From: Straminergon stramineum
Lineage: Eukaryota; Streptophyta; Bryopsida; Hypnales; Calliergonaceae
Length of the DNA: 64,000 nt
Assembly: GCA_963920665.1 (NCBI GenBank)
Contig: OY987266.1
Span: 15,877,001 to 15,941,000 of the forward strand
Direction: 5' to 3'
The position numbers and the translations under genes were made by a program. Below, in pieces: positions 11,118 through 41,900 of this stretch. The notes beneath the pieces were generated by a model. The model was not told the origin of the DNA. It ran no database searches and saw only the letters and a list, made by a program, of their open reading frames with translations. Each line of letters opens with the position of its first letter. The first letter of the stretch is position 1.

Positions 11118-11229
11118 GGTGTGCCTTCCAATCCAAAGAAGTTTTAATAAGTATAACGAGTTCAACTTTTAACATCCAAGAACAAGTCACTTCATTAGGA
11201 CCTTGGGGTCTTCAAGGCATCTTCAGGTG

Positions 11230-12775: not shown

Positions 12776-13020
12776 GCTTGAGAGGGGAGGTGGGTGTTGT
12801 GAGGAGGATATTCTATGTCTCCTCATGTCACTTTCATCCATTGATTGTAAATCACACCGAATTGTTTGAAACTTGATTGTGATTGTAAATGCTCATGTTG
12901 ATGTATTTGTAAATGTGAATTACCACAAGGTAATAGATTTAAGTTTGAACAACCACGGTTTTAGGCTTGGTATATTTGGCAAGTAGATCCGAGTAGAATT
13001 GATCGTATAGATTGAGCACT

Positions 13021-14484
13021 ATGGAGAATGAGCCCCCACCATTGACGCCTGCCACAATCAAATGCCTTACACGACATGAGATGAAGCTCATCCGCGACAA
13101 GGGTCGGAAACGGTCCGGTAAAATTCACAAGAAGCGTGTGGCCATTTTGATCCATCCAAAGATTAAGGCATTTAAAGGTTGGAGAAATGAACCTGAGCCT
13201 TGGAGTTACAAAACCGTTTGCAAATACGTGGATTGGTGCCACATCAGCAAATTATTTCCCTTGTGTCGGCACAAAGAGCATTTGAAGCAAAACAAAGTAA
13301 ATCTTGCATACTCCAAGGATGAGGGCTTCATACTTAGATGTTGTGAGGTGTGGAAGCACTTGTATTTGGAGGACTCAACTTACCGAAACGACAATTTTTG
13401 TTTCTTTCTTGTGAGAATGGTGTATGCTGAATATGTGTTGAAGAAGGAGGTGGATTGGTCAACACTGAAGGAGGTCCCTATTGCGATCATTCCAGAGACT
13501 GCAAAAATTTTACCACCAGATGAACCTATGGATGTAAAGAAGATGTTATCCAAGGTGAAGCGTGGGAAGTCATTTGTTCGCGATGAAAGCGTGGTTTGGT
13601 CAGAGACTTCTAGCTCTGATCTACACACCCATGAATACGATGGACATTCTTTCCACAACGATGAGGAGGAGGTTGCCATACAAGAATCTAGGCTGGCTGT
13701 GGATGTGGAGTCGACCAAAGTGGACAATCAGCTCAAGAGCCCATCATAGTACAAGATACGGATGAAGAAGGCATGGATGATGGGGGTGGCTAGGAGAGTG
13801 GACCCCGTTTTGCGAGAGGGTGATGGGAGTGGTGGAGGAAGCGATTCAGAAAATGAAGAGGCAATGTTGCTTGCCAAAATAGAAAGTGCAAAATTAGCAT
13901 TGCGTGCAAACAACGAGCAATTGAAAACTTTGAAGGAGCAAGAAATGAATCCCACTTTTGTAGAGGTGTTGAAGCAACGGTTGAAGGCCATAACGAACGT
14001 CATCGAAGAGAATGACAAGGGCTTCCATTCCTTCAAAAGAAATCGCGATTTTTATTTGAAGGAAATGAAGAGTGGGAAGGTGCATAAAATGGACCATTAT
14101 TTGATATGGGAATCAAAACTCGAAACCCTTGTCTGCAAACGTCAGCAGGCAGAGAATGAAAGGCGAAGCCTAGAACTTCAAATAATAGAGAAGAAGAAAG
14201 AATATTACGAGGCTGCTGTCTAGCACGTTCCAAAAGTAGAGCTTTTGGCTTCTTCCTCAACATATGGTAGTGTTGCTGGAGAAGTAGCAACGCTTGAGAA
14301 GTTGGTGAAGTTCCATGAGCAAAGATTACCATTGATGGTATCGGAGTTGGAAGGTTTGAGGGCAGAAAGTCATTTTTTTTCGGATTGGTATAAGTGGAAT
14401 AGAGCTAGCATAGGGAAGTCTGATGCAGAATTACAGCAAATGGATCTGGAGCCCATTTTGAAGGACTACCTCAACACAAAATAA
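13021..14484 (+). pseudogene. Gene B: relative of genes A and C (WCHI/RC/VDW domain plus coiled coil), two TAG stops
   Basis: One frame of 487 codons runs from the ATG at 13021 to a TAA at 14482-14484. It is interrupted only by TAG at 13747-13749 and 14221-14223, both possibly former CAG codons. The conserved N-terminal domain (residues about 30-160) shows GKIHKKR, FKGWRNEPEPW, DWCHISKLFPLCRH, LRCCEVWKHLY, MVYAEYVLKKEVDWSTLK. These match gene C closely and gene A more distantly. An acidic linker follows, then two charged helical segments (about 13860-14220 and 14280-14480) that predict coiled coil. Nothing in it resembles a nuclease, polymerase or transposase. The function is unknown. The 200-N gap lies just upstream and the nearest array is 1.9 kb away, in the opposite relative orientation to the other pairs, so array 4 may not belong to this gene. 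Confidence 0.65.
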
Positions 14485-15737: not shown

Positions 15738-18230
15738 CTAGTCAATTACATTTGGGTTGTTTTGAGAGCCACTTCCTTCACCTTCTTCATAGGTCGATGC
15801 TTCCCCAACCCCTAGCTTTCGCTTTGCACGGGTTCGTGAAGCTGGTCCGTCTGCCTTCAAAATTGATTGCAATACGTTGGAGTCCTGTAGAGCTTGGAGG
15901 GTCCTTGTTGTTTGCGGAGAATGTGCTTCCAACAAGTAGTCAAGTGCTTGACTTTGGTAATATGGTCCGTATGTAGAGTCTAGGTAAGCCATACTAGTCA
16001 AGTCTTCTAGGGAGGCACTATCATCTTGATTAGCCACCCTTTCTCCTTCTAAATTCCAACGGTGTCGTTGCGTATGAGGACCCCACTTGAAGGTTGAGGA
16101 GGTCTTGTCCCAATATCCACCAAGGCATTGGAAGAAGAATGCCCTTTTCCCTTCGTTTTGTGGCCCCTTTCCCATGAGCCTTGGTGCAACTCTGGCAATT
16201 TTGTCTGGGTCTGTTTCCCAATTCAATTGCGAGCTAGTAGGTCCTTTTTCTTGATCATGTTGTCCTTCTCGCCAACTCCAAACCAAATCTCGGCCCCACA
16301 AGGTTGTGTCAGCCGTAGTATCACGTGTGTGTTCCCAAGAAGGAGGCATGTAGGTCGTCAAGTTGAACATGGTATATAGGCGATCATGGAATGGTGCTGA
16401 ACAAATCACACAACGTCGTCTAATCAAGCATTGTGTGATGAGACATTGGGGGTGGTATACATGCGCACAAGATCCTAGTGCCCAACCCCCTTCGGGGCCA
16501 AATTGTTCAAGACATATGGGGCATTTGGTATGGTCCAAAACAAAAGGTGCAGGCTTGGGCCACAATAGCATTCATTTCTTCTCTTCTATGTGGCTAGACA
16601 TTTGGTTTTGGTGGTCCCAACCATTTTTGCTCCAATCTATGACCTCCTTTTGTGGCAATTCCACCATGCACATGTTATTGGGAAACATGTCCTCCAACAA
16701 TGCCCATGACGTCAGTCCATTCTCACGTTTAGGAGCATTTGCAACAAAGTTTCTAGAAACTTTCTCTAGCTCCTTCACAACTTGTTGGGATCTATCTACG
16801 GAGAGAATGCAGGCGACCTTCCAATGGTAGTATGTGGTAGTCAACTCAGCCAACTTTCTTCGAAGCATCTTATTTTCTTCTTGAAGTCCATGGTCTTTCT
16901 CCAATTGAATAATTGATGGAACCACAGGAAACGAAAGAGAGTCTTGGGTCCCATTGAGGTCAATTGTGTCATTGGTAGTATATCTTGTGACAATAGTAGG
17001 AAGTGTATTTGGAATGATGGGGGAGTGTCTAGTGCGCTTGGCAAGAGGAGAACGCTGAAGGATATGGTTGGTAAGGTCCCCCACAACCTTGTCCACATTT
17101 TGGAGGTTCTGCTCAACAAAGGCGTCATCCATATCCGACAAAGTGAAAGTGTCAGGGTCTTTCTCACGAAGGCGTTGCAGTTCTGTAGTTTGTTGAGAGA
17201 TGAGTGTACTTTTTTGTTCACACTCACATCGCAATTTCCTCATTTCATTCTGTAGTGAAGAAATTTCAACATCTTTGGTCTTGAGGAGGTCTAGAGCTTT
17301 TGCCAAAGTCATAATGTCATGGCTTGAGCCCATTGTTGATGGAGAAATGGGAACACGGTTAGTTTCTTCCATAGCCGTGTCCTCATCGGGCCCAAAGTCG
17401 AAGACGTCATTTGTGCGCTGTGTTGGTAGTGATGGGTTAGGAACTATAGTTGGAATCGATGTGGGTCCCACTCGTGTTGTTGAACGCTGTACTCTAGATG
17501 GTTGCCTTGGTCGTTGTCCCGTGGATGTCGCGGGTCCTTCTACAACTTCATTTTGAACCTCATTGGGGCAAACAGATTGCTCCACGATTCGTATGACCCT
17601 ATGGACACGCGTACCATCAGAGTCATCATCTTCTTCAGACTCCTCAGTGTCAACCTTAGTGGCAGGGGTTTGCGTTTTGTATGCACTTCGAATAGGACCG
17701 AGTCCCCCCTCAGGAAAAGCTAAAACTCCTTTTGGGATGAAACCACTCTCTGGACGAGTGACATACGTACTTCCCTTGATTGTGCTCCAATCAACCTCCT
17801 TGTTTAGAGCGACCTCAGCATATGCTCCTCTAGCAAGGAAGAGGGGGACCTCGTTCCTATCTACAAAGGCGGTTTTGTAGAGGACTTGCCACAATTCAAT
17901 GCATCTTTGAAGGAATGCTGGATTCTCACAGTACTTCAAGTTGGCCTTATTGGTGTGCCGATTATAATGATGACGCCATAAAGGAAAGAACTTGCCGATG
18001 TGGCACCACTCGATGTAGTCTTCACAGGTCTGTATTGTCCAAGGCTCTGGTTCTTCATTCCAACCCTTAAAAGCAAGGTGGGCTTCACTATTGAGCACGT
18101 GCAATCGCTTCCGATGAATAGTGCCCCTATGCTTGCGATGTTTGTCTTTGGCAGCCTTCCGTAATGCCCCGGCGGTCTGTGCAGCTGCGGAGATAGGCAA
18201 TGCCCTAGCATTGTTAACTCCAGTGGCCAT
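15738..18230 (-). pseudogene. Gene C: WCHI/RC/VDW-domain protein with coiled coil and C-terminal RING-H2 finger, one TGA stop
   Basis: The frame from the ATG at 18230 to 15738 (830 codons) is interrupted only by TGA at 16572-16574, directly before MLLWPKP, and reopens in the same frame. The N-terminal family domain (HRGTIHRKR, FKGWNEEPEPW, EWCHIGKFFPLWRH, QRCIELWQVLY, VDWSTIK; residues about 35-165) is shared with genes A and B. A variable proline/threonine-rich linker and a coiled coil (about 17300-17170) follow. Past the stop is a clear RING finger: CPICLEQF, then SCAHVYHPQC, then CVICSAPF (about 16520-16395), giving C-x2-C ... C-x-H-x2-H-x2-C ... C-x2-C. RING-H2 proteins are usually ubiquitin ligases (established knowledge). 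Ligase activity of this family is inference. The frame is also open upstream to 18383, but ATG 18230 lies just before the conserved block. Array 5a is about 200 bp upstream. Confidence 0.75.
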
Positions 18231-18423
18231 CAATGATTGTCGTGTCCAAGGCTCAAAAAACTCTTTTGGGAGTTTAGGTGGTCCACAACTACTAAGGTAA
18301 GAAGGGTGGATGAATGTAATAAATAGTAAATAGTCAAGGTTCACGCATGTAGCCACTAAAGGATACAAGACAAGAAGCCTCAATGAAAGGTGCCCAAAAA
18401 GTCTTGGGCGAGTGGATAAATAG

Positions 18424-18760
18424 ATGGGGCGAGCGCGGGTGAGAGTTGGTCATGGGGCGCGTGTGGGTGGGCGACCACCGGTTGAACCCGCGGTCTCCAG
18501 AGGGCGCGCACGGATCTCGGGGAGTGACTACGGGTCTGGTAGGCCGCATTCGGGTTCGAGGAGGCGACTGCGGGTCCAGGGGCGCGTGTGGGTCCTGGGA
18601 GGGGCAACCTCGGGTACAAGGGCGCGTGCGGGTCTTTTGGGGGGTGACTGCAGTTACAGGGGCGCGTGCAGGTCCTTTGGGGGGTGACTACAGGTCTTTG
18701 GGGCGCGTGCGAGTGCCTTGGGAGGCGACTACGGGTCTTTGGGGGCGACCGCGGGTAATT
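18424..18760 (+). repeat. GC-rich minisatellite array 5a
   Basis: Copies of GGGCGCGTGCGGGT, GGCGACTGCGGGT and GGGTGACTACGGGT lie directly upstream of the minus-strand gene C. They read ACCCGCRGTCGCCC on that gene's coding strand. CpG-containing variants (GGGCGCGTGTGGGT) are commoner than in the other arrays. Confidence 0.88.
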
Positions 18761-18827
18761 GTGGGGCGTTACCTCTCTTTGGGTTCTCACTTCATGTCTT
18801 TGCTTCGCAGCTTGCCACGTACTCGAC

Positions 18828-23411: not shown

Positions 23412-25303
23412 CTAAGAAAGCTTGAAGTGCTCATGGATTCCATCACGAAGAGTTGGAGGAGCATACTACATTGGGTAGTGGGGAAATATTCTTGGACTCT
23501 ATTATGAAATATTAACGTGAATTGTACTCAAAAGTAGAAGTTTAAGGTATGTTATTTTCTTTTTTAATCTTATTCTTTGATATACGAGTATCTATGAGTC
23601 ATTGTGCTTATTGTTGCAGTGATTTCTAGAGGGTCCCTTTATGTTGGATATTGATTGCTTGATTTGATCATTAATATTTTGAATTGGATTGTAAACTATG
23701 GTTGTGGTTGCAATCTTTGTTGTGAAATCAATATTCTGGATTAAAGATCTGTCAAACCTTTTGACAACGAGTTGGGCTTGTGGCTACTAGATGGTCGATC
23801 CAATTGTTTCATTTTGTGAGTTTGTTGTGGAAGGCTTTCTTACCAGAAGACTCAAGGCATGCAAGATTCCAAGTCCATCACTACTGTTTGCATTGCCAAT
23901 CCACCTTTTCAAGCATTTATTCTCACTATATTATTGTTGATTGGAGCCAATTTCCTCAAGTTCTCAAAGGCCCACTTTGGCAACTTCACCATGACATACT
24001 GCACGTTCAAGTACTAAAATTGAAATAGCTAGAACCACATAGTTCAGCTAAATTTGTAGTATGTCATGGTGAAGTTGATCATGGAGAGATCATCTCTCTA
24101 CATAATTCAACTGCAAAGATCATCTCTCTATGAATTAGAATATCCTCACATACTCATTAGAAAAGTCTCATATTAGAATATCGTTAGATACTCATCATCC
24201 TCACCAACGTTATTTGGTTATTGTAGGAAACACAACAAGCTCTTTCAAGGACAAATCCAAAATTGGGGCTGAAGTGAGAGATTGAGAGTTTGTTCCACAT
24301 GTTTGCATTGAAGAAATTAAAATTTGGGGCGCTATCTATTTGGAGAGTAATAATAAGGTGCCAATAGTTCCAGATTTCAAGCCATATATGCTACAGGGTT
24401 GCTATTTTGTGAGCCTGTGAGCTTGTGAGTGTAAGAGTGTGAGCTACGAGCGTAGATTTTCTTGTATTAATAATTGATGAGGTACCTATGATCGTGGACT
24501 TCAAGATAAAGACTTCACCTTATAGTGCAGGATGAAAAAAACAAATGGTCATTAAATTTTTTTTATCTTCATGGTAATTGAGTTCATTTGTAGTGAAATT
24601 TATTGCAAATTCTCTTGTTATAGTTGAGGATATTTATAAAAAAAAAGATACTTAATCCATAAATCACTATTGTAGTGTAATTCAGCCATTTTTTACTATT
24701 TATTGATGATAATTTCGTCCATTAAAATGATGCCTTTTAATTTTATTTAGCAACTATTTAAATGTAGCTTCAGAAATGCAATTTTGACTCCAATTCGTGT
24801 GGCCTAAAAAAATTTGAAATTTAAATGCTGCCAAAGAGAAGTAGACTTGGTTGCATTCTATGACATTTGACAATAGAATTATATGTAGGGCGAATTATCT
24901 TTATTTTCTTTGTTTAGAATACATAATAATTTTGAATTCTAAGGCGTGCAAAAATATCACTACTTGTTGTTGACATATGACATCATTTCCAAATCATAAA
25001 CAAAATAATTTTACTCATTTGTAGTAGTCTAATGGTAGGAAATAAAGTAAAAATCAACGAGCCTTTGAATCATTGGTCATTAATTCCTCCTAGCAAGGAT
25101 AAATGATAGGTGAACTTCACATTTAGCAACACCATGTTATTGTGAATTAAATATAATTTATAATCCCTTAAATTTTTTAAAACAGAGGAAGTTTTAAATA
25201 TAACAACTTTAGATACATAGAATACTACTTATTGAAGTACCAAAACAATATATAATGGCTGATAAAATAAAATCCAACAAATGCAGTGCAACTAAAAATA
25301 GAC
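23412..25303. other. AT-rich spacer with one perfect 20-bp inverted repeat
   Basis: No gene is supported. CAACTTCACCATGACATACT at 23981-24000 is repeated exactly in inverted form at 24058-24077, around a 57-bp loop. Short direct repeats (GATCATCTCTCTA, ATTAGAATATC) lie at about 24090-24185. The rest is simple AT-rich DNA. Confidence 0.6.
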
Positions 25304-28300
25304 TTACATAGAAAATGTAGACATAGACTGAGAGTGGCCACTGCTAGTAGTTGATGATGACTTTGTGTCTGATTCTAAGGCTGTTGCATCTACAAACTGC
25401 ATAACCAAAGGATCTAAAGAACTCAACTTTTCATGCATAGGAAAATTTTGAGTAGATGCAAATGTTGAAGCCAAAGCCTTTGCATATGATGGCAATACAT
25501 AGGACTTCCCTGGGCTTGGGAAAAATTGAGGTAAAGTGAAAAAAGGTCGATGAACTACCCCATTAGAAATCATGTTGCAAATACATAACAAAGGATTAGA
25601 AATGATTTAAATATTAAATTCCTTGTGAAACAAATAAGCAATGTAAATGTAAACAAAATTTAAACAATGTTTTAGATGTACACTTACAAATTGAAAAAAA
25701 TTCTAGACAAAGATAGACTTACTTACTGAAACGAGATTTCTTAATAATATGGGGAACTTCAACTTCCACTGCATCTTCATCGTCAGACTGCAAAATGACT
25801 GTCGCGAGTGGTATTGGAACATCTGGAAGAGAACGAATCATTGGAGCTAGAATTGCCTCAAAAATGGCCTTGTCTTCTTCAAGTGCAACTATATGTCTAC
25901 TCACAATCCTGCATGCATGGATGGAGGCCCCTAATAACAAGATCACCACAACATCAATTGTTAGAAAAATGGTGGGAGAGTTGGAGGAGGAAATGTAAAT
26001 GAAGATTACAAAAATAGGTGGGGAAGGCAATTGAATTTACCAGTTCCTGCAGTACAGTCTAGAACAACATCATTTGGAAGTAATGATGCTTCTATCAACA
26101 TCTGCAAGAATCGTGGATCCTTTTCTCTTGCCACTCTCCAAGGCTTGGAATTGTGGTCCATGGTCAAAGTCTCCAATTTGGTGAAATTTTGAAGGACATC
26201 GTCTAGGACAACATCCACCCCCAATTTCTTCAAGCTTGGGCATGGCTGAAATTGAAACTTTGAAGGACCAATACCAAGCAAGTTCCTCACAAACAACGAA
26301 ATACCGAAGCGCTGAGTCTACAAAAATGAAGAGATATGAAGATAGTTAGTCTATAATGTAAGCATAATTAGATACTCTTAGATTATTTGAAACATAAAAC
26401 AAATAGAAAGATCTCACATCATACAATCGAAAACCAATATAAACATATAACACCTTGCTTAGAATTAAAAGTGAAATATTCAACAAAAAATTGTATATAA
26501 AAAACTAACTACATTCTAAACCAAAAGGACAAATGAATATACCGTTCTAGAAGGAGAAATAGGTGAGGCCAAATGTAACCAATTCATTCCCTACCAATCC
26601 TTCATCTTCTCAAAATAATATGTAGTTGCATATGTGCGAATGGTGGCTTTTGTAACAACCTTCAAAGGATAAATAATGATAAGAGCTCCATCATCATGCA
26701 AATGACCACCAGCGAACTCAAAAATTGCCTCTAGCCCTAGAGGGTTGTCCATGTTCCACTTAGGCACATTGGTTGTAGGCACTGACAAATCAGGGACAGG
26801 CAAACCCTCAAGAACATCGACAATAATAAGATCAATGCGTGGTTTCTCACTTGTAACTCCTTTGAAGAAACGTTGCTTCACCCCTTTGTGTTGCAATAGA
26901 ATTATGATAGTTAGTAAAACAAAGAAATAAAGTCAAAAAATAAAATCATAGCAAATTTATCAAGGCAAGTGAAGTTGCTAACCTCATCAATAAATTTGAT
27001 GATGTCGTGGTACACTTGGGGTAGAAGATCAGCCAAAACATGTACTAGAGAATGATTAAGAATGAACTCATCGATAGAAATGTTTGAGTCATTCAAAAAC
27101 TCCATAACTGATGGACCATGCAGTATCCCATCATCGTTGAGTGAAACATAATCAGCATCACGTTTGGTGCCTCGTGAGAAAGATTGCACGTGTTGGGATC
27201 CTTCATCTCTAGTAGATGAAGGTGGAATTTGTTGCTTCATAATTTTACCCCTAGTCTTCTTAGCTGCTGAAGCCTCTTCAATCTCAACTAGTTTTATAGC
27301 CTTCTTTGTGATTCTCTCCTTAGCCTTGTCTACAGCCTCCGAGTTTTTCAATGCTTTCTTCTTGTCAGCTTCATCCCTTTTTTTCATCGCTTTTGCTTTT
27401 GCATCCTCATCAAGACCAGCAAACTCGTCAATTTCTTCCACAACCTCATGAGAATTGATAGAGTGCTTGAGGTGCTCCTCTGGTAGCGGCGTGAACTCCG
27501 GTGGGCAATCCAAATACCATGCACCTAATTTGAGATGCAAACTGGTCCACCACCTCAAGTGAGATGTTGAGAACATGCAATGCTCAGAGGAGACATCCAA
27601 CCATGTTCCTAGAAAAGGAGGAAGATCATGCCTTACGATTGCTCCCTTTGGCAACAACTCGTACTTGAAATACCTATAGAAATAAAGAATGTTATTAAGA
27701 AAAATCGCATGCAACCAAGAAATCAATATTTCACTTAACCATAAAACAATGAAAACATGAAAGTAGAATACATACCTGTAAATCACACGTTTTACAACTA
27801 GATCACTACCCTTGTGTTTTTTGAAGTCATCTGACTTCCTAAAGACATCATGCCCCCTAAAATACATCAAGAATGCATGGTCCCAAACTCGGATTCTCCA
27901 TCCCTCTACATAATCTGGAAAACTCTCTGGTTCTTGGGGAGAATCCATGGACAACGTTAGCTCGTCCTTCTTTACAATGTTCTTGAACATTTTATTCCCC
28001 ACCTCTTCAATCTGCAGAATAGAAAAATAAAAATTGTCACTTATAGATATCTTTGGTATCCAAATGATAATGTTATCTGCTATATAACATAATTGTAAGG
28101 CATTGAAAAGCACTTACCCCTACATACTAGTAGGCCTTTGCCAAGAATGATTTTAATTCATTCTCTCCAACTAGCTTCAATGGAAATCTTCTAGCCTCTC
28201 TTGTTTGAATTGAAGAATTCCACCATCGCAACCACTTCACCTTTTGCTCACTAGTGACATTGCAAGTTGCAATCAACTGCAACTTCTCGAGAGTCATTTC

Positions 28301-29601
28301 CGAGGTGATATTTGAGCTCCAATGGCGCTCAATTTGTATCACAAGGAATTTAGACTCATAAAGATGGCATGACACGAAAAGAACATAAGATGAGAGGACA
28401 TATGCAATTTCATTTTACCTCTCAAAGCCATTCACTCCCAAGGTTGGGATTAGCTACGGCTGTTAACTTCCCCAACTTCTGGATCAACTTGGATGTCTTC
28501 TCTTTCGTACCCAATCTCATGGCAGCTAAGATGCCTTCCTCTGACTGCTCTTCCCCTAGTGTTTCTTCTTTATATAGTCAAACTGCAATATCAACTGCTG
28601 CTGCAATCTCGTACTACACAATAATATAGCCATGAGCACTGCTGTAACATAAACCCAAAGAATATAAGAATGACATGATTAGTTTAGTGAGAAATGTTAC
28701 CTGAAAAATGAACGAAGTAAACACTTCGAGTGACATAGAATACCAACTCTTTCAATGGCTCTGTTGGCATTGTGTCATCTCAGAGGTACTCAAATGCTCG
28801 TAGAACTTGTCTAGTGGAAGAACTCCGTATTTTTGAACACGATAGAGCGTGTGTACGAGACTAGTTTTGATAAATGAATTCTTTGTATGTCTGCAAGGAA
28901 AAATGTAGATGTTATATGAAACACAAAGTAAGGTACATACCAAACCAAAATGTAAACTACATGAGGTAAGGTACTTACTTGTTGATGTCGTGCATGGCAT
29001 GCATAACATCACCAATTCTACCCTTCGTCTCAAGAATGATTGAATCCACCGAAATGTGCCAATCTCAATCATGGCCATGATGTTTGGATATATATGAAGA
29101 CCATGCAAGCAGCCTATGGTTACCATCACATACAAAAAATTTAGAGTCTTGAAAACGCTCCAAGCCTGGTGTTGCATTGAGTTTGGCATTGAAGAGGTCA
29201 TTCTCAGCATTCCACATTGGGCCCCAAGCACATTTATCAACGTCAGACACTTGCTCTGTCTCTCCTTGCTCGTTAGTTAGTGACACATAAAACACACAAG
29301 ACCCATCTTTGTATCCGTGCACAAACTCCTGCTCCAATTTGGTAAGATCACATGCTAATGCTGGACGAACCATAGGCATCACAGCAAGTCGACACAATGG
29401 TATCCACAAACGTGAAATTGAATGAGGTTTCAATCTAAAGTTAGTAATAGAAGCCACAAAATTAACTTTCTGGGCTCTCCGGAGGGCATCCTCAGTGGTG
29501 AATTTTGTGTTCGTCTTCTCCACAGCCTCGTCTTCATCATCATCAATATTTTGATCCAGCAAACCTAGAGTTGGCAAAGGATTGGAATCAGAACCCATCT
29601 C
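25304..29601 (-). pseudogene. Spliced ParB/Srx-like plus permuted amino-methyltransferase protein, decayed
   Basis: About ten exons read leftwards: 29601-28979, 28890-28701, 28613-28419, about 28353-28118, 28011-27776, 27673-26983, about 26893-26543, 26317-26041, 25930-25727 and 25554-25308. Most have clean GT/AG borders, and frames match across the last four. Exon 1 (start codon 29598) carries FFVCDGNHRLLAW, a ParB/sulfiredoxin-type DGNHR motif. Exon 6 has a lysine-rich coiled segment. Exon 7 has IDLIIVDVLEGLP at the methyltransferase motif IV position. Exons 8-9 join to VVLDCTAGTGASIHACR and RHIVALEEDKAIFEAIL, which fit SAM-binding motif I and the following acidic strand. Motif IV before motif I is the order of beta-class N6-adenine/N4-cytosine methyltransferases. 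Premature stops: TGA at 29065-29067, 28578-28580 and 28422-28424; TAG at 28127-28129 and 26591-26593; plus a frameshift in exon 2 near 28770. The DPPY-type tetrapeptide is replaced by DVLE. It is probably inactive here. The substrate is unknown. Confidence 0.62.
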
Positions 29602-32600
29602 CTGCAAAAAACACCAAATCATTAGAAGGAATCATATAGTACTGACAAATGGATGCAATCAAATTAATGAACACAACGAATAAGAGATGAAAAACCACTC
29701 TGAAATAAGGAAGCCCAATTAATAGGGACCACGAGATCTTTAAAAATCCTTAAATCTAACCAATAAAAACCAAACATTTCTCCAATATACTCTCGCAAGG
29801 GCCCAACAAACATAGTGCCCTCAGCGCCGAGGCCACCCATGCCAAAGGATAATTCTAATCTAGGTAAATATACAATTCAAGAAGTCGATATGACCAAAAC
29901 CCTAAAAACATCAATTCATAGGAAATTATTTATCCCCTTGATGCCAGAGGATGCGAAATAGGGTACACCAATTAATCAAAGCAACCAGTGAAACATGAAA
30001 TCAATGAATTTCTCTTAACCCTAAACAAGTAAGATATATTTGATAAAATCAAAAAATCTCCAGAAGAACTATCCCTCGGTGCTGAAGGATGACTACGAGG
30101 TTGAACAAATTGATTTAAAAAAAAAGTGTTTCAAGAAATGAATGAATTTGATGATATTTAATGTAGGTCCAATCTATTCAGAGAGATCAAAAACTCAATG
30201 ACAGCACTAGGCCTCGGCGCCGAGGCTTCACACTATCTAACTAATGTAGATACTAGAATCACTATCACTCTAATGTCATATCACGAAATTACTAGGCTAG
30301 TTAATCTAAACTACATTGTAATTTTTTAATTTATCCTTTATTATCAGTTGATAATCGCAGAACCTTCTCTAAAGTTAGTCTATAAAAATCCAAGAGCTAA
30401 TATGAAAACCAACTTTAGGATAGTTCCTTAATAATTATTCAAATAAAATATGGATCATAATACTTAGCTCACGTAGTTCAATATTCTGATTAAGACTGAA
30501 AATAGAGAATGTGTCCATCGGGATCGAGCCTTCCTATAATGCACATCAATTTGATTGATAAAGAATAACCCGAATCAAAATCAGAAAAATAGCAAGCATA
30601 ATTGTTTTAATAAAATAATTATTTGACCAACAAACTAACTTCCCAGGTAAGGATTTGATTTCTGGATACATACTAATATACTAATAAACTAACAGACTGA
30701 AACTGGACAGTGGCTCATCAACTGCCGGTTGAGATTTGTTTATCCTCAGAAGACAAGTCAACACACGAGCCCAACCAGAACTACTTTGGGCCCTGACTTC
30801 TATGCTTCGGGTGTGGAAAACCGAGATCAAGGAATAACCACCAGATGACTGTCATCGGCCTTGAGGCTGGAAATACGGATCGATACTCTGATCTAGCAAC
30901 ATCTCCTTAAGCCAGTCCAAAACAAATCATAGCAAGAAAAGAAGCTAAGTAACAACTGTAATATCCTAATGAAGAAATGGATCACATCTTCAATTTCGCA
31001 ACTAAGCATTCAGCTACAAGATCAGTCGATCTTGTGCCACAGCACATGTTTCCTGCAAATTATGGATTAACGATTCTATCTCAGCCATAATAACATTTCT
31101 CAGAGAAAAGAAGAAGTCCAAGTTCTATTGTACTAGACTTCATCATCTAATTAGTATTTGATTCGGCAAAGCCAATGGCAGACTTGTTGATCACAGCATC
31201 CAAGGCAAGATAGTTCCATCGGGGCTGAGGCATCCCAGTTAGCATACCTGATAGATTAGATTTCTGAATCGGCTGACCTGGCAGATCAAATTTTTGAATC
31301 GGCACACTCTACTGAGCTCTAGACTGAGCTTGTGTCAGAATCGGCAGAGACTGTTGAGAAAGCTGATCGACACCCCTAATCACTCTGAAGTTTAAAATTC
31401 ATGCAAGGTTGATATAGGTAGCCACTGTGAAATTTCCCCAACCATAAACTTTGAGTCTTGGGTATTTAATTTCTATTGGGTTTTTGTTATCTATTCAAAT
31501 CAATATCATGAGATAGAGTGCTTTATACGTTCTTCGTGCCTTGCTGGTTTTCATGACATGAATTGGAAGAACTAAATCTCGCCCTTGAGGCCGAGGGATC
31601 CCTTGCCTGTTTGGAAAATGATCGGCAAAGCTGTCTAGCTAAAAGTTCATTCGTAGAATTCATTTCGAATTCATACAATGCACATGGTTTCGTACTAAGG
31701 AATATCTTCAACTTAATTCTTTCCCGTATGTTGAGCTGCCGTTCTCTAACTCTAATTTCCTAGACTGCAGATTTTCAGCTATCACTGAGAGCATGCGAAT
31801 CTGTCCACTCATTTCCCCTCAAATATGTTTCTAGATTCCCAAGAAGATAAACTAAAATGGGTCTCACCCAAAGACTTGAACTGTTGTAACTCAATCTATC
31901 GTACAATTCTATTACCTTGTTCAAGCAATGAATTTATTATTTCCTTTACAAACTCAAACTCTTCCAATGACTAGCTGTGAGACGCAAGAGATAACCAAGA
32001 AGCATAATGTTGAGGAAAAAAACCCATAAAAAGATTCCTCATGTAGAATCTATGCCGAATCTATGAACGGAAGTTAGCATTCTAGAACGTACGAAAAACG
32101 TTCCTAAGACACGACATAGAAAGTGACCCTCTAGTAATTGGGTCTAATCCTCGACGAAAAGTTAAAAGATTTGAATATTCTAACCAATTTAGAGTAAAGA
32201 ATGGGGTCAGTCCTTTAGAAAAAATGGGATAAAGCTGAGCTAGAATATCACAATTTATAACAAATTCATGGTAGGACCAAATAATTCTACCAAAGTTGCA
32301 ACAGAACCATACCACACAGTCCCTGTGACAACAAAAGCAGCAAAAAATATTGTAGCAATACTACGAGATAAAACAGTTTTGACACGCAGATACGTATACG
32401 CAAAGGCTAAATCATAGATTAATCTGCGCCAAAGGTATTAAAAGATAAGACTATCACAATCAGATATCCATCTTGACCTAATTAATAGGACCGCCCAATT
32501 CTAATTATTGTGGTGTGGTTGATGAAAGAAATCTGCATAAAGTGATATGGTTCTTAGTTCACTCATCCAAAGTCGGCTTTCAAATGGAAATTCCGAATTG

Positions 32601-32689
32601 GGTTTAATAATAGTTAAACAGATTACTCAGATAGAAGTCCACAAACTATACATGAAGGCTGAAATTGAAAAAGGAGGGCCGAAACTTAC
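29602..32689. other. Upstream or intronic region of the ParB-methyltransferase relic
   Basis: No coding exon is convincingly recognised. A 16-bp perfect palindrome, GCCTCGGCGCCGAGGC, lies at 30211-30226. Related GC-rich words (GCGCCGAGGCC near 29825, GAGGCCGAGGGATCCC near 31586) are scattered in otherwise AT-rich DNA. Because exon 1 begins right after an acceptor (TTTTTTGCAG), the true first exon should lie in this stretch or beyond it. Confidence 0.4.
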
Positions 32690-32839
32690 CGTGGCTGCAC
32701 CTAGAGTAGAAGTCTTTGCGGTTTCAATGCCAACTAGAATTTCTGGGCCGACATCCCCATTACTGCCATCACCCTCACGTTGGAATCCTCTAGCTGACTC
32801 GTTTCTTGTTGCAAGCTTCCTCGCCACTTCTCGCATTTC
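32690..32839 (-). CDS. Candidate internal exon, unknown protein
   Basis: On the minus strand an acceptor-like CTTGTTGTAG precedes GAAATGCGAGAAGTGGC. About 50 codons then run to GCCACG|GTAAGTTTCG. The peptide starts EMREVARKLATRNES and is glycine/serine-rich afterwards. Both splice sites are canonical and the frame is open. It could be a 5' exon of the ParB-methyltransferase gene 3 kb downstream, or part of an unrelated gene. No domain is recognised. Confidence 0.3.
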
Positions 32840-33081
32840 CTACAACAAGATTACGGAAACCTAATTTAGCAATCATCATATTCAGTTTTGAGGAAATGCA
32901 TAAGATAAGTATTTTCTAAACCATGTTTACACCTAGATTGTCACCAAGGCAATCACAAGAATTACTACTTACGATCAGTTGATCATAGCACAAACTTGAC
33001 CGCAAAGAAGGAATGAAATGGTCGGAAGAGGAGGACGATGGCCTCTAGGGACGAACTGGTGCCTCCTGATACCTCTGCAGT

Positions 33082-33250
33082 GGATACCTTTGCAATAGGT
33101 CACCTGATCGGTTACCTTTGCAATAGGTCACCTGATCGATTACCTTTGCAGTAGGTCACCTGATCGGTTACCTTTGCAGTAGGTCCATTGATCGGTTACC
33201 TTTCCAGCAGGTCAACTGATCGGTTACCTTCAATAGCCGGTTACCTGTGT
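33082..33250 (+). repeat. 28-bp tandem repeat, six copies
   Basis: The unit is GGTTACCTTTGCARTAGGTC followed by ACCTGATC. Six copies are progressively diverged towards the right (CCATTGATC, then AACTGATC). No coding role is apparent. Confidence 0.9.
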
Positions 33251-35100
33251 AATGAAAGTGGTGTATATCAAATGGTATGGGATCACAATTTGAAAATTCA
33301 ATTGTGGAATTTACATACAAAAACAATTATAGAGTGTGAGTTTTAGATTCCTTCTTGAGGATTAGATTTTCCTATGCTATCATCAATATTTTTGTTCTGA
33401 ATATTATCAATTTTGTTTAAAATTTGTTAGAATGTGTTTGAAATGAGGTTCTCTTCACATGGTGATTTTTTAAAATTTTTGGGTTCTTACAATCTACAAC
33501 ACCATTGTGGCTAATCCCATCTTGAGCTCTAGTCTTTGCAATTTAGTTTTCGTCAACTACATGACATACTTCCAGATTTGGAATTTAAAAAAAATATGTA
33601 CACTTGTAATATGAAATTTAACATTTCAAGAAGACAAACACATCATATATTATATCTAGAAAGTAGAATGACTCCTCTCTATGTTATATACAGAAGATTC
33701 TTTAGTTTCAAACAATTTGTCATTTTCTTTTTCGACATTGGTGCACGTCAAGGTTATTTTAATTCTAATTTGTAGGTTGTTGGCATGCTCCAAACATATG
33801 AAGAATATATATGTGTCCGTGCAAAAGTGAATATACTTATGCATGAGTTTGACGTTGCTCTCCTACGATAGAACTTGAGTTGCTCCACCTTAATATTTGA
33901 TACCTCCTGTCCACTTCATTCATTCACATGGAAATTTTGTTTCTCCTCTTCTATACGAAGGTGGAAATTTGAAGTTGGAGCTGACAAATTTTCGTCTATA
34001 GCAACCTTCCCTCTTCTCCGCAATCATTGCAACTCCTTCCGCGATGAGAACAAAATTTTGCCTTTCTTCATCCTCTTTCTAAAACAACATTGGGAAACAC
34101 TATCAATTCTATCTTTTGTAGCATGCATGAGACTAGTAGATCATAATGTGGAATGAATTTGAAGAAATATAGCAAGATTTAAGCAACGGCAGGAATGCAT
34201 ATTCCAGTATGGACTTCACACTATTTTCAATACAGCACGTAAGTTCAAATCCTATGGTGTTCACTAGAATGGGTAGACAATGACTTCAACTTTCATGTTA
34301 AAGGATTATTTCATGTTCATAGTAATGGGATTAAAATTTTCAAATTTCCACGGCAATCTTGGGAATTATGTCACCACATATTGTACAACTCTTCACTACT
34401 AAGTATTTCATTTATGGCAACCTAATGTAGGTAGACAAATAGTTTCAAATTCATTGGCATCCACAAATTTGTGGAACATATTAAATGTCATGATGGCCAT
34501 ACTTTAATTGGAAGTGTAGAAAAGTGGTTTTGAATTTGAACTTGGGTAATTAGTTACAATGTAAGCACCAAAAGCCATCATCATAAGCAATTATGCATAG
34601 TTCAAGGTACCTATCCTGTACAATATTAGTTCCCTAGTATTGGCCGTAGACAATTTTGAATTTCTTAAAACTACTAGACATTCTAGAAATAGTATGTTAG
34701 TAATTTCTATGATTTTTCAAAGTGGAGGCTCGTAGACTAGTAAAACCGTCATATCAATTTAAGGGACTTATATCTACATAAATAACCCTCTTTACACCCA
34801 ATCACATTTAAATACGGAGACAGTCTATGGAGAATTAATTAGAAGTCTATAAACTATTTAAATGTTTAATGGAAAATCAATTTGAGTGGCGGTTCTAGAT
34901 ATACGAGATTGGAGACCTCTGACAATATTGTTGTTTATCAACTAGTAATACAATTACATTTTGTCCTAATCATGTCCATTTAATTGTATACCTCATGCTT
35001 ACATAATGTTTACAATAGAACCTCATACACATAGTAAGTTAGTCTCTAATCTCTAATAAGTTTTCATTGGATATTGTTCTCATTGTCGTTGTTTCTTCAT
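33251..35100. other. AT-rich region upstream of the MULE
   Basis: No gene is supported. It probably includes the 5' flank or terminal region of the MULE that follows, but no terminal inverted repeat was identified by eye. Confidence 0.4.
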
Positions 35101-38100
35101 ATGCTATCAATGGCCTCCATTCGAGCGGATGGCCATGAGATTCCCCTTGTTCTCCCTCTTGGAGAAGAAGGATATGTTATAGTGTCTTCACACCTTCTTT
35201 ATGTCCGATTTGGTTTTCTCCAATCCAGTATATATGTTGAAGAAGAAGTCATGTCTGATTCTGGAAGCTTGAAGGAGTATGTCCACATGATGAAGTTAGA
35301 ACTGGAGGATGGTCATGCCTGGCACCTTCGTCTAGGTCGCTATAGAGCTTATGGGTTGTTGTCTCTCATGATGGGTGCTTCCATCGAGATTTTACCTCGC
35401 CAATCAGATCCTTCCACCCTAGATATGCCTCCTGCTCGGCATGATATTAGGAATTCTATGGAAGGTCAACACATGACAAAGGCGAGTAATACAATTCAAC
35501 TTCTTCGTGTGAAACATGAAGTCCTTCACCATGTTATAGATATATCTAGTGAGTCAGAAGGAGAGCCCCCTAGCCAACCAAGTATTCAAGCACCGCTTCC
35601 TGTTAGAGTCCTTGAAGATATGCTTAGGACAACTTCTAGTACATACCACACGCCATCAAGTAGTCCTGCTCTGTCGACTCACTCTCGCCCACCAACTTAT
35701 CCAAATAGTATAGACACAACCAGTATTGTTGGGTGCTAAAGGAATTTGGCATCAATTCGTGGATCTAGGAATGAAGTTGCTACATTAGATTACGATTCGC
35801 TGATTCATCACAAAGTGCAGTATCTCCCCGCAAACTTTGATGGAGACGTAGTATTTGAGTTGCCTTCACTTCGTGTTTCATCTTCATCATCTACTGGTGG
35901 AAATCTATAGGGCATGGATAAACGATATGATGGTCATGCTTGGTGTCAGACCATGACATCCAATATCCACAACCAAGATGGCCTGAAGTTTAGAAAGTCC
36001 TCTTGTGTAGGCCATTTGGTATGTAACAACTCCGAGTGTGATTACTTGAAGCGGTCCTCTAAACGCAATGAGACAGAGTGGTTTGGTTCTACTATTGCTC
36101 CATTCCATATTGGCTCAAATCCTCCGAAGGATTCAAGTATTATTTGCAAGATATGCAAATATCCACCTCATTGTGTTATTATTTGTGATGCTAGAATATA
36201 TTATGTTTTCATTGACATTGCATTGATGACGAGAGCATGCATTCATTTAGGTAATCACATGCATCCTGTGGCTTCAGGAACATGTAGAGAGTCTTTAGAC
36301 ACTATTTCCGGTCTCATTGCAAGCGAGGTTGCCAAGACTCCAACTGCCACTAACTCAGCCATCGCCCTTGGAGCTAGTAAGCAATTTCTAGACAACCACC
36401 TTATTCACAATGGCGATGGTCCTAAGGAGATGTTGCAAGGAAAGTCGTTAGAGGATGTCATGGATAGGTTCCAAATACTAAGTTCTCCTAACATCCATAA
36501 CATTATCACTTCATTCCGTAGCACTGATAAAGGTGGGGTCATAGATAGCATCATGAATATGAAATGGAATTTGAAGTTTAAATACATTCATGACAGTGTC
36601 TTTCCCGGACAAGGAAAAGAGAAGGTATACTTGTTTAAAATGTTGGTTCAAGGACCTGGTAGTGGAATGGACTTGGTGAAGCGCATGCAACCCGGAGGAG
36701 ATTTAGAGAACGCGTGGCTTATATTTGACCATGTAAAACGTGTTAAAGATTGGACAACCATGGCATGCCATGTATATGACACAGGATGCAGGAAGGTCAT
36801 TACAATCGCCATTTGTGACATGCAATCTGAAGATACAGAAGTGCAATGCATCATGTGGAGGTTACTAAATGATGTTATGAGACGCAATGGCGTGATGAGT
36901 CCTTACTTCAAGGGTTTCATGGTAGATAATGCACAAACAAATTGGAATGCTATTCGCATTGTATACAGCACGGGGAATACCAAAGAGGAGCTTGTTAACT
37001 GGGAGCGTACATGTCTCTTGCATTGGAATACTTCGATGCATCGACATACCCAAAAGCTCATTAAACCGGATATGCAACACCAACATACTCGTTTGTGCTC
37101 CCAATATAAAGATTCCAAGACCGTGGAGGAAGCCGAGACATGGTACTTAGCGATTCGTTCTTGGTGGCTATCATCCAGAGCAACTTCGGAAGAGGCTTTG
37201 CGTAAATTGGAGTTGTGGCTTGCATTTTGGCACTTTCGATATCGCCAATGGGGCGGGTTCATGCAAATGGTACATTATTCGATGTCATTTTTTTAATAAT
37301 GTCTTGCTTGTACAACCATTTTCATTTCATAATATCTTTCCTATAGAACTACTTGCATTCCAATTTTGTTCCCTACAAACTAAACCACTACCTCTGATAG
37401 AATTCTGATCACCAAAGGTAATGATTGACTTCCCCTTGGGGCCGAGGGGACCCTTTGCCTTACAATGGAGTGATCAAAAAATTATAGTAGTATACCTTAG
37501 TGAAAGATATGGCATGTTTTTTTTTTCAGTCATTATATTTTGGGCTAAAGAAAACCCTTTTTCTCTTTCTAGGGGTTGAGTCTTGACGAAATGGCGGACA
37601 TGCCATCATGCAATTTATTAGAAACAATGCATAACAAATGGTTGCAACAATCAGGCAATCGAGGTAATGACTTATTTGCCGCCACTTGTGATGATTGCAT
37701 TCGCGCCTTTATGCAAATGACAAATTACCAAGCATTCTTGAATGGCACAACATCAAGGTCAGGGCCATCCAAAGAAGAACTGAAGTTAAGAGGCGCTAGA
37801 CGGAGTGGCGATCCAAAGAATATTGTAGAGGCTTTGAATGGCCTTCTTGGAGTAGTTGGTGTTTGAACACATATTCCACATTTGGAAGGTGAAGAGGTGT
37901 TTGGTAGTAGTAAGCGCAAACTTGACCTTCCCATTGGTTTGGATGGTGACTCCCATCATCCAGACAAGGTCAACTTCTCTCAACCACGAGTGCAAACACG
38001 ATCTACATATACACCAACAATGGCCTCAAATGAAGAAGAAACTTTGCCTACCTCTATGAATATACCACATGTCACAATTGCGATGGAGAGTGATTGTGAC

Positions 38101-38979
38101 ACTTTGCAATGGCATATTGCACGGATTTCGCAAAAATCAAGTTGCAAATGTCATGCCCAACAGAGGGGATCAAACATTCGTTGCATTGCCAAAATTGCAA
38201 AGGGATCTAAAGGCACTCCAACTCCAACGTATCGTGGTAGAAAAAAACAATATCGAGGAAACAAGGAGATCATGACTGACTTTTGGTTTTGTCCAGATGA
38301 TATTGACCGATGTGTACGAGGCTCTAAACGTCCTTGGGTAATTAATTGGCCCCAAGTACCTAATGTGTGGCCTATTCTATCTGACACTAGATTGAATCAC
38401 CAAGAAACCCTACTACTGCAAGATGCTGGCTTCCAACTCCAAGAGCGACCACCTATATCACCTTGAGGATTATTCAGAATGTCCAATATTTTTGAAGTGG
38501 TCCTCTACGATTAGCCTAGTCCTTTGCATGCGAACACGTATCCAACAACAAGAAGGAGCAAAGCTCTTCGCCGTATTGTAAATGCTCCTACTATAGAACA
38601 TCGCAATAAATGGGAGAGTACTGGAAATGTCAAATGATTGATCTTGAGAGTAACTATGTTGCCTTTCCCTGGGCTTGGAGCCATAATCTCTCTTCAATCT
38701 GGAATTCAACCTACAGAAAAGGTTTATCGAATTACACTTGGCATGTACTCGGAGTGCACTTGTCTAGATTTTGTAGACATGGCTATCTCAGCAATTGGTG
38801 GCCGCCATCAGTATGTGAATTGCAAACACCTTTACTACTTGTTTCGTTATTTTTGCAAAATGAATCCAATAGACAATAAGTTTATACATTCTCTAAGCTT
38901 CAGCTTCAATGAAGTGAAGCTCCTTCTCAGTAGGGCTGGTATCATCAAGCTTCCAAATGAGAATCTTCATCATACCTAG
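35101..38979 (+). pseudogene. MULE (Mutator-like) transposase with WRKY/GCM1-type finger and SWIM finger, six in-frame stops
   Basis: The frame is continuous from ATG 35101 to 38979 across one intron (about 37270-37572; ATG|GTACAT to TTTCTAG|GGG, phase 0). Stops: TAA 35737-35739, TAG 35908-35910, TGA 37864-37866, TGA 38464-38466, TAG 38512-38514, TGA 38635-38637. Domains: an unfamiliar N-terminal block (LPLGEEGYVIVSSHLLYVRF); a GCM1/WRKY-like zinc finger (KSSCVGHLVCNNSECDYL, then CKICKYPPHC and CIHLGNHMHPV, about 35990-36270); a MULE RNase-H-like core (IAICDMQSEDTEVQ, FMVDNAQTNWNAI, CLLHW, about 36810-37030); and a C-terminal SWIM finger (ECTC ... NCKHLYYLF, about 38750-38850). WRKY-GCM1 fingers in MULEs are established knowledge. 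The product would cut its own ends and move DNA in the nucleus. This copy is dead as read. Confidence 0.85.
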
Positions 38980-41900
38980 ATGACTAAGAATCTTTGAGTG
39001 TTTACATTTCAGATTGGAAGGTTGTAGATTGAAATTAGATATGTAGCTTCAAGAGTATTGTTTTCTATCTAGACAAATACTGTAATTTGCCAAAGTATTC
39101 AATACAGTCTTTTTTCAATTTCAATTTGCATTGTACTATAGTTCAATTATTTACCATTAAAATATATACTTTTGGTGTTTAGTACGTTATGAAAATAAAA
39201 CATTTTACACAAATTGTACATAACAACAATAATAGGTCCGTGCTAATAGGTCCACGAGAATATCTTCACGGTAATAGGCACTATAATTTACTAAAAATAG
39301 AAAATTTTATCCTAATTTTTATAATGCTATTTCTTTTTAGAAATCTTATTGACTTTTTTCTTAAAATTTTCTAAATGTTAGAACTCAATGCTCACATAGT
39401 CCCTGCTCACTGCTCGTAGGCTTGTGCTCGCAGGCTCACAAACTAGCACCGTTGATATATGCTACAACATCTTCACAAAATAACATGATGTCTCTAATTT
39501 CTTGATGCTTGATGCCAATCTGGTGCAAATTTTTTTTCTTTTATTTGGACCTTTGTGAGCCCTCAAGTTGACACTTAGAACTTAGGGTTTTCTTTTTTTT
39601 TTCGTTTCGTTAGTATTTTAGTGTATTTATATGCAAAAATGCATAAAAAGAGTATTTGAGTGGTATTTGGTAGAAGTCCTTACCAATATAGTGAGGAGTC
39701 ATCCTAAAAGTATGGAGTACCTGAAATACTCCAAATTCATACTTCCAGTGCCTAGTTGAGAGTCTGAGAGGTCAATTAAGTATTTTCGAGAGAATCAAGG
39801 GTCTGAGTGTTAGTTAGTCCTAGTAGTTGTCCATGTTAAACTAAGTCCTACAAATACATGTGACAAGTTGGCTAAGTCCATTTTAGGTCTAGAGAGTCTA
39901 ATACAGGTCACCATCCAATCTGTAAAGAATTTGGATTGGTAAATTCTTATTTGCAAGTAACTTATAGAAGAATGATCCAATCTGCAAATAAAGCAATGAG
40001 AAAGCGACCGAAGTATGAAGAAATGTGCTTTTAGTCTAAAAGCATGCCAAGAGCCAACATTGGAGCCGGTTGTTCCAAGATTCCCTGATACAAGAATAAT
40101 TTCCCCCTCGAGTGAAAATTAATAGGAAATTGTTAATTTTAGCTTTCCTATGAATAGTGCAAAGTAAAATGTAATATTGCACTTTGGTTTTGGAAGTTTC
40201 CTAGAAGTTGCCCAAAACGTTTCGGATTTTTCCGAAACAATTACAATGACTCCATGGGAAGTCAACTGCCTTTGAACATGGTCATAAATTCTTAGAAATT
40301 ACTCATGATGTGATAAAATCCCACTAAAAATTAGGATAGTGTTTTGTGTGCTAATAAAGCGCCCCACAAAGTTTGAAGACATTCCGACATTCCGACATTC
40401 CTAAGTACCAGAATCGCCAACAACATTGAACTTTTGAAGAATTTACAATTTTAGGGCGGATTGACCGACGTACCGGGAGATAGCAGTGTTTAAATGACAT
40501 GAATGAGGGTTCTTCTCTTACTCCCAAGAACCTTCTAAGTAATTGTAACTAGATTGTTTCCTCAAAGGAAACAAATTCCAAAAGTTAGAGTTTTCACTTT
40601 TTTTTGGAGTTACTATAAGTTGATTTTACACTTATAAACGGATGAGATGAAAGGGGTTAAGGTGTTTCATTGGCTAATTTGGGTCTTCTAAACACAATAG
40701 CGCAATCATTTTTCAATTTGGAGTTGTTCTCTAGAAGATAGGAAGGGTCCAGCAGTAGGTTTGACTTTTCTAGAGTAATTAGTAGTAATTCAAAGTTAAT
40801 TTTGCAAATATCTTTTGGAAAATTGAAGATTGGATTTGGGTAAGATCTCTTTTCTTGCGTAATAAGCCGTCTTTTGTTTAAAGAAGGACAATTTAGAAAT
40901 ACTTTGGGTTAATTAGCAAAATATCTAGGTTAATTAGGGTTATTTTTGAAATATCTGTGAAAAAAGATCTTGGATTTGATTTGGCCAAGATTTATTAGCT
41001 AAATGAAGAGGGTTCTAAAGAATTCTTCCATTAAACAAAGATTATTTTAGAAATATGTTAGGGTAGTTTAGGAAATATCTTGAGATCAAAAGTAAATATT
41101 TTTCCACTGACAACTTATCAAGGAAGGGCTTGGCACAAGTATAAAAGGCCCTTCCCTCAAGCTTGTTGGTACCCTCATTCTTATATATAACCTTTGCTTT
41201 TGTTTCTCCTTTGCTACCAGCATGGTTGGAGCATTGATCCAAGTCGAGATCCGACCTAATTTTCATTCTAATTCTTGATTTGTACACTTTGAAGGACGAG
41301 ATGGTCCCTTCAAAGTGATTTCTATTTGATTTTTTTGATTTCTCGAGGCTAAGCCTCCATTTTCTTTGATTTGTAAGAGTTTTTGAAGGGATAGACCTTC
41401 AAACTCTAATTTTGTTTAACATTGCTTGAAAACTAACAGTTTGTGCTCATTACAATAGAATTTGGTGTTAATAAGCATAAGGTGGCGAAGCTTGATTTTG
41501 CCAAAAGTTTATTAAACCAACCTTTACCTAGGATTCGTTGTATAACGGAAATTGGGGCTTTAATTACTAAAGTTCGGTTTAAACGTTGTCATGCATACCT
41601 CCTTTAGTGATTAAACTTGGATACTTTGAAATTTTAAAGAATTAATCTTTAATGTTCAGTTAAACACTGTTATGTGTACCTCCTTTAAAGATTAGAACTT
41701 TCAAAATACTATAATTTGACCATCCATACCGTGTATACCTAGGGTTGCCCCTGCACGGCGAAGCTTTGACTTTAGAATTTCCAAAATTGATATTTCAAAA
41801 GTGCTTCCAAGTATTTAAGTATTTGAAACCATTAGAGAAATCTCTCTCTTTGCACGATTGAAAAATGCCTTGCAGGTGTAGTAATTGAAAACATTTGATT

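Follow-up and report, generated by a model that had tools for sequence, protein, structure and literature searches.

A ParB–methyltransferase-type gene as a probable accessory gene of a giant DNA transposon in a plant-type genome

We analyzed a 64,000-nucleotide stretch (the window) of a Straminergon stramineum contig (OY987266.1, here called C4; positions 15,877,001 to 15,941,000). A gene with introns, on the minus strand from 29,598 to approximately 25,304, combines a ParB/Srx-fold domain with a methyltransferase fold of the N6/N4 type, permuted as in the β class. The whole gene is enclosed by a 15,061-bp DNA transposon, and it is probably an accessory gene of a giant (15- to 19-kb) DNA transposon present in at least 150 copies. 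A bacterial-type two-domain protein is thus abundant in this plant-type genome because a 15- to 19-kb transposon carries its gene. A preliminary description of the locus had proposed an old transfer or a mobile-element origin; the mobile element was found, whereas the idea of a lone transfer did not hold.

The transposon and its copies

Alignments around close copies of the gene continued far past it and then ended abruptly. The window element and a copy on contig C8 had the same ends and were 93 to 96% identical piece by piece. Terminal inverted repeats of 29 bp bound the window element, which is flanked by a perfect target-site duplication, ATATATGCTA (Table 1). A 10-bp target-site duplication was found in four of the five elements examined: it was perfect in the window, in C8, and in a C4 element of a second clade (clade B; the window element belongs to clade A), and it matched at 9 of 10 positions in C7. 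The chance that 10 bases agree at a single given offset is ~1.4e-6. The longest exact matches found by script were 12 bases (window), 10 (C8), 13 (C4), and 8 (C7), with none for C3; the limits of these matches were then set by eye at the element ends. Element lengths ranged from 15.1 to 18.9 kb. Short inverted repeats were also sought between positions 24,000 and 31,500; no terminal repeats appeared there, because the element exceeds that stretch.

Mutator-like (MULE) superfamily elements have terminal inverted repeats and an 8- to 11-bp duplication, and the 29-bp repeats and 10-bp duplications seen here fit these features. The MULE transposase profile PF10551 had 32 matches in the genome, which came no nearer than 74 kb to the 150 listed places of a transposase-like gene described below. 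Sola elements have a 4-bp target-site duplication; the 10-bp duplications of four of the five elements do not fit the Sola1 superfamily in this respect.

We searched the genome from which the window comes (326,016,511 bases in 59 contigs). Exon 1 had at least 150 scored copies among 782 first-look candidates; they were 45 to 100% identical and spread across C1 to C11, which together make up 324.9 of the 326.0 Mb, and many were decayed. For exon 7, at least 150 copies were scored from 722 candidates. These numbers bear on whether the gene might be an immobile host gene, anciently acquired from a phage or bacterium. Such a history would suit the deep divergence from a homologue, L001, that has intron positions in common with the window gene (see below), and ParB-N6_N4 fusions recur in phages and prophages (PMC12704722). 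It is contradicted by the spread of the gene, with at least 150 copies on 11 large contigs, and by the discrete ends, inverted repeats, and target-site duplications. We consider a host gene very improbable, and for the window copy it is refuted by copy number and element ends.

Public protein data contained 277 exon-1 homologues at an E value of ≤1 among 357 candidates (best, 3.6e-89). Among the 120 listed, 96 stop exactly at the exon-1 donor, as judged by the pattern used, and 9 more stop there as MN[DN]INK. Another 9 extend a few residues as K-Y.., and 5 differ (P0007, P0015, P0033, P0057, and P0099). The remaining one, P0006 (339 amino acids [aa], from a public assembly), runs from exon 1 into exon 2 without the intron, as a transcript would, and then goes out of frame. 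Most listed copies therefore seem to retain the intron, which speaks against RNA-mediated spread. In P0099, from a metagenome source, the exon-1 sequence is fused to an exon-4-like end, with exons 2 and 3 skipped; this is perhaps an internally deleted element copy or an assembly artifact.

Clade-B elements (L034 to L036, with L038, L041, and L039) have tandem arrays between their two divergent genes, at approximately positions 9476 to 10450 of the oriented, joined sequences. These arrays are a possible candidate for a binding-site array of the ParB-like protein.

Gene structure and the two domains

An alignment of the exon-1 family (A1; 119 sequences, comprising the window and 118 of the 120 listed homologues, with P0021 and P0027 excluded) was used to scan prokaryote genome contigs. 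A single locus was found, L001, a contig of 4,691 bp assigned to a cyanobacterial metagenome-assembled genome. Because its gene has seven exons, L001 is more likely eukaryotic DNA placed in a cyanobacterial bin. The L001 gene encodes 1,136 aa without an internal stop, and its product aligns colinearly with that of the window across 1,059 columns, at 27% identity (E value, 2e-113). Introns lie at matching places between exons 1 and 2 (phase 2), 2 and 3, 3 and 4, 4 and 5 (phase 0), and 8 and 9 (phase 1). Exons 5 to 8 of the window correspond to one uninterrupted L001 exon, and hence the fusion does not depend on the splicing model. Since a stop-free homologue is colinear with it, we concluded that the window locus is one gene. 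The preliminary description, which had placed both ends in one gene between 25,304 and 29,601, was thereby confirmed, and its limits fit the end of a probable last exon and the start codon. Upstream of the stop-free gene, positions 1 to 400 of L001 contain several repeat copies bearing GGGTCTCGGATCCGAGACCC-like palindromes.

The window gene comprises nine exons, read as open stretches on the minus strand from the ATG at 29,598 to approximately 25,726, and a probable tenth that extends to 25,304; most exon borders have GT..AG. The ParB-like motif region FFVCDGNHRLLAW is carried by exon 1. Exon 8 ends in VVLDCTAGTG, and exon 9 contains ASIHACR...RHIVALEEDKAIFEAIL; the border between them is a canonical GT..AG, and their joining in phase 1 within motif I yields VVLDCTAGTGASIHACR..RHIVALEED. 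The splicing of these two exons into an S-adenosylmethionine (SAM)-binding motif I with its acidic strand had been predicted correctly. The earlier count of about ten exons also stood. The window copy is a broken, decayed gene. It has six in-frame stops, in exons 1, 2, 3 (two), 4, and 7 (Table 1), and has lost a splice acceptor, AG being absent before exon 4 at the border placed by L001. At the first stop (29,067), seven of the eight nearest aligned relatives have an ordinary residue and one has a gap. A 1,015-aa spliced query, which contained a segment afterwards assigned to an intron (28,409 to 28,334), gave no homologues at an E value of ≤1e-3 among 7,522 candidates, whereas single-exon queries did find homologues. 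The failure is probably due to the searched collection consisting of exon-sized open reading frames (ORFs).

Modeling predicts a ParB/Srx (ParB-CTPase) fold for exon 1. The phosphate-binding motif of this fold is known in the variants GERRxR, GGCHR, and DGHHR, and we took DGNHR to be a further form of it. This peptide, pointed out in the preliminary description, is present in 118 of the 119 aligned family members and also in L001; the position of the Srx cysteine is presumably occupied by Asn. No family member matched Pfam ParBc at an E value of ≤0.5 (0 of 119), and other weak Pfam matches were to DUF1015 (4 members) and DUF6551 (1 member). Searches of exon 1 for a ParB relationship in Pfam, PDB sequences, PHROGs, and phages (tblastn) yielded nothing useful. 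The phage matches were two and insignificant (E values, 0.7 and 5), and no relative was found among the virus contigs searched. The relationship to ParB is therefore visible from the fold alone.

The last three exons, spliced together, matched Pfam N6_N4_Mtase over profile positions 165 to 219 (E value, 7.1e-6; 26.6 bits, with a curated cutoff of 26.7 bits). They also matched a PHROG DNA methyltransferase (1.3e-5) and, weakly, the solved DpnA/M1.HpyAVI (0.0047). The methyltransferase piece of L001 matched N6_N4_Mtase over the same profile positions only, likewise below the cutoff (1.2e-5; 25.9 bits). The PF01555 profile alone had no match anywhere in the window's genome, probably because introns split the domain. 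Motif I takes the forms LDCTAGTG, LDCTASTG, LDCTTSTG, and LDITASTG and is followed by the acidic strand HI[VL]ALEED, as in a SAM-binding motif. Motif I is damaged in copy L033 (LDSTARTG); distant copies retain both it and the ALEED strand.

Within the methyltransferase fold, the motif IV region precedes motif I, in the permuted order. At the site of motif IV, the window has DVLEGLP, L032 and L033 have DVPEGLP, L034 to L036 have DCQENLP, L001 has DVPEDLP, and P0001 to P0003 have DMPEGLP or DMPEGLL. Twenty stop-free, diverse exon-7 pieces were chosen by hand from the 150 listed; all 20 had Glu as the fourth residue and Asn as the fifth, 18 kept the Asp, and 15 kept the final Pro. The catalytic [DNS]PP[YFW] was absent: none of the 20 pieces had an aromatic fourth residue, nor did the window, P0001 to P0003, L001, or L032 to L036. 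We concluded that the DPPY of amino-methyltransferases has been replaced by another conserved motif, D-x-x-E-[N/G/D]-L. The motif-IV-like strand noted at the outset thus has the β-class order but not the catalytic residues.

Selection, the partner gene, and the role of the protein

A strand-picking motif filter was passed by 28 of 30 fetched exon-1 copies, and the ratio of nonsynonymous to synonymous substitution (dN/dS) was estimated for 289 of 378 pairs, 172 of which had dS up to 1.5. The median dN/dS over rising dS bins was 1.24 (dS <0.05; 7 pairs), 0.52 (65 pairs), 0.37 (42 pairs), 0.22 (9 pairs), 0.21 (dS, 0.4 to 0.8; 48 pairs), and 0.18 (1 pair). Similarly, for 25 exon-7 copies (L001 excluded; estimates for 209 of 300 pairs, including 115 whose dS was at most 1.5) the medians were 0.90 (5 pairs), 0.87 (4), 0.44 (12), 0.39 (14), 0.21 (19), and 0.22 (61). 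In both domains, this trend fits drift after insertion and purifying selection between lineages, and it suggests that the element needs both domains. A captured passenger gene with no role in the spread of the transposon, as in Pack-type elements, would be in keeping with the many decayed copies and with the many transposase-like copies that lack a partner among the matches listed. It is at odds with a dN/dS of ~0.2 between lineages in both domains and with the occurrence of the same gene in clade-A and clade-B elements, whose transposase-like genes are 65 to 67% identical. We regard a passenger as improbable.

The partner gene of the window element is Cys/His rich and divergent from the ParB gene. 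Its aligned part is 94% identical to that of the C8 copy and 65 to 67% identical to those of clade-B copies; in a clade-B element, the gene is open over 738 aa, with more open stretches besides. At least 150 copies were scored from 698 candidates. Among the 150 listed exon-1 copies, at least 52 had a divergent transposase-like gene less than 15 kb upstream (5.0 to 13.5 kb; median, 8.6 kb), 1 had it upstream on the same strand, and 5 had it downstream; in 500 random placements, such linkages numbered 0.5 on average and 4 at most. From its position and copy number, we infer that the partner gene encodes the transposase. Were the transposase encoded elsewhere, the divergent gene would be a second accessory protein, and its failure to match any transposase profile would be explained. 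That arrangement is unlikely: among the conserved genes seen in the elements, the divergent gene is the longest besides the ParB gene, its copy number is high, and it has Cys/His clusters and an FD..CDMQSED..FMADSA..CLLHW series that resembles, by eye, an RNase-H-fold DDE core.

Several observations weigh against a transposon with an accessory ParB–methyltransferase gene. The transposase-like gene has no Pfam profile assignment (SWIM matched at 0.32 only); no MULE domain was found in its ORFs, and the Pfam MULE profile missed it in the genome-wide search. An hhalign comparison of its putative second-Asp motif with MULE pieces was not significant (probability, 0.3; E value, 0.2). No transposase-like partner was present for 98 of the 150 listed exon-1 copies among the matches listed, and no target-site duplication was found for the C3 copy, one of the five elements examined. 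Few pairs fall in the youngest dN/dS bins, and the pairs are not independent. The structure model of the methyltransferase is weak (pLDDT, 58.5), and the exon-1 ParB model had no Foldseek match at an E value of ≤0.001.

As an accessory protein of the transposon, the gene product would return to element DNA. Its ParB-type domain, by analogy with ParB, may be a nucleotide-gated DNA-binding or clamping module, and its C-terminal domain would bind SAM and mark or guard the element DNA, favoring transposition. On a more speculative reading, less likely than not, a new giant plant transposon lineage may spread by means of its own nucleotide-gated SAM-binding protein, in which the change from DPPY to D-x-x-E-N-L would signify a new modification of the element's DNA or a SAM-sensing clamp that controls transposition, with SAM/nucleoside triphosphate (NTP) state as the switch. 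Alternatively, the protein might label the element's DNA as a classical methyltransferase of the N6-adenine or N4-cytosine type, with the ParB domain for targeting. The β-class fold and motif order, the conservation of motif I and the acidic strand in distant copies, and the purifying selection on both domains would all agree with a labeling enzyme, and labeling has been suggested for algal proteins (PMC12477816). However, [DNS]PP[YFW] is missing from every copy read, and we hold a classical enzyme to be doubtful. Judged from sequence, the C-terminal domain is somewhat more likely to be a SAM-binding scaffold or to have an altered active site than to carry out canonical A/C amino-methylation, because every copy read shows the same kind of change in motif IV. 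Catalytic amino-methylation by this domain, given that the gene is indeed accessory, would fall a little short of an even chance.

Other window features and known systems

Table 1. Coordinates of the element, its two genes, and their parts in the window
Feature	Position	Strand	Basis and remarks
DNA transposon, 15,061 bp	24394..39454	.	Ends common with C8 copy; terminal inverted repeats and target-site duplication
Target-site duplication, left	24384..24393	.	Identical to 39,455-39,464
Target-site duplication, right	39455..39464	.	Identical to left copy
Terminal inverted repeat, left, 29 bp	24394..24422	+	Matches the right end in reverse complement at 24 of 29 bases
Terminal inverted repeat, right, 29 bp	39426..39454	-	24/29 bases are the reverse complement of the left end
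Exon 1: predicted ParB/Srx-fold domain, CDGNHR motif	28979..29598	-	TGA at 29,067
Exon 2	28701..28890	-	TGA at 28,754; junction with exon 1 intron-free in P0006
Exon 3	28419..28613	-	TGA at 28,580 and 28,424; aligned with L001
Exon 4	28118..28333	-	TAG at 28,129; start placed from L001, without a preceding AG
Exon 5	27776..28011	-	Open stretch; L001 alignment
Exon 6, including Lys/Glu-rich linker	26983..27673	-	Open stretch; L001 alignment
Exon 7: motif-IV strand IIVDVLEGLP of the methyltransferase fold	26543..26884	-	TAG at 26,593; start approximate; phase between exons 6 and 7 ambiguous
Exon 8: up to motif I, VVLDCTAGTG	26041..26317	-	Open stretch; Pfam profile match
Exon 9: ASIHACR..RHIVALEED, strand with acidic end	25726..25930	-	End approximate
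Probable last exon: Ser/Thr/Pro-rich tail	25304..25554	-	Open after TAG acceptor; comparable last exon in L001; start approximate
Transposase-like gene, Cys/His rich, C-terminal SWIM-like CxC..CxH	35050..38976	+	Several open stretches, divergent from ParB gene
Open stretches of transposase-like gene	35,050-35,736; 35,911-37,293; 37,867-38,463; 38,638-38,976	+	ORFs

Elsewhere in the window, positions 2395 to 4233 (minus strand) contain remains of a hAT-type transposase, with DUF659 (2.5e-36) and the hAT dimerization region (1.3e-6). Three long ORFs, 6381 to 7775 (minus), 13003 to 13746 (plus), and 16575 to 18449 (minus), had no convincing Pfam family and appeared related by eye; the second and third both bear an FKGW.NEPEPW-like stretch, and a RING-finger ORF (15,741 to 16,571; 1.4e-6) adjoins the third. 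These three ORFs are possibly another transposon-borne family. A run of the plant telomere repeat TTTAGGG lies interstitially at 9673 to 9723. GC-rich tandem arrays of GGGCGACCGCGGGT-like units occur in AT-rich surroundings at approximately 9928 to 11128, 530 to 705, 5232 to 5479, and 18566 to 18768, and long palindromes occur at 50870 to 51199 (~330 bases, 74% self-complementary) and 11390 to 11560 (~170 bases, 79%).

To our knowledge, bacterial-type DNA N6/N4 methyltransferases have not been reported from land plants, and our literature search found no description of such a ParB–methyltransferase protein in a land plant. Annotators should be aware that a ParB or methylase match in a genome of this kind can stem from a transposon gene and need not indicate a transfer or contamination. 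The rewritten active-site motif offers a testable handle on why transposons retain such proteins.

In the ParB-fold survey of Kaljevic 2025 (PMC12704722), N6_N4 fusions are commoner in phages and Srx is the most common eukaryotic member. The phage and prophage fusions of a ParB-CTPase fold to N6_N4_Mtase have both folds in one polypeptide, as here; they are prokaryotic, whereas the present gene has introns, a long middle part, a Lys/Glu-rich linker, and no Pfam ParBc match. Methyltransferase-type genes are also carried by DNMT retrotransposons of dinoflagellates and charophytes, with hundreds of copies in Symbiodinium, and by DIRS elements with Dam-like methyltransferases (PMC5890265). Those elements are retrotransposons with other enzyme families, in contrast to a DNA transposon whose gene has introns. 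Fungal DNA transposons that encode TET/JBP dioxygenases (PMC12730594) likewise carry a DNA-modification-type enzyme, but it is a dioxygenase. Further background came from a survey of MT-A70 proteins (PMC12695648) and an account of giant transposons (PMC6431247).

The closest likeness is to the Ectocarpus element Sola1-1_Ec32 (21.5 kb), a giant DNA transposon with a 1,104-aa ParB-like and N4/N6-type methyltransferase protein encoded opposite its transposase (PMC12477816); for the element described here, the transposase role of the opposite-strand partner is our inference. The same article cites green- and red-algal cases (Iyer 2011; Petroll 2025) and suggests that the proteins bind and modify their own transposon. 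ParB–methyltransferase proteins of this kind were therefore already known from brown-, green-, and red-algal transposons, and our results extend the theme to a plant-type genome. Compared with the algal proteins by description, what is new here is the plant-type host, another type of element with 10-bp duplications, the high copy number (at least 150), the signs of selection in both domains, and the rewritten motif IV.

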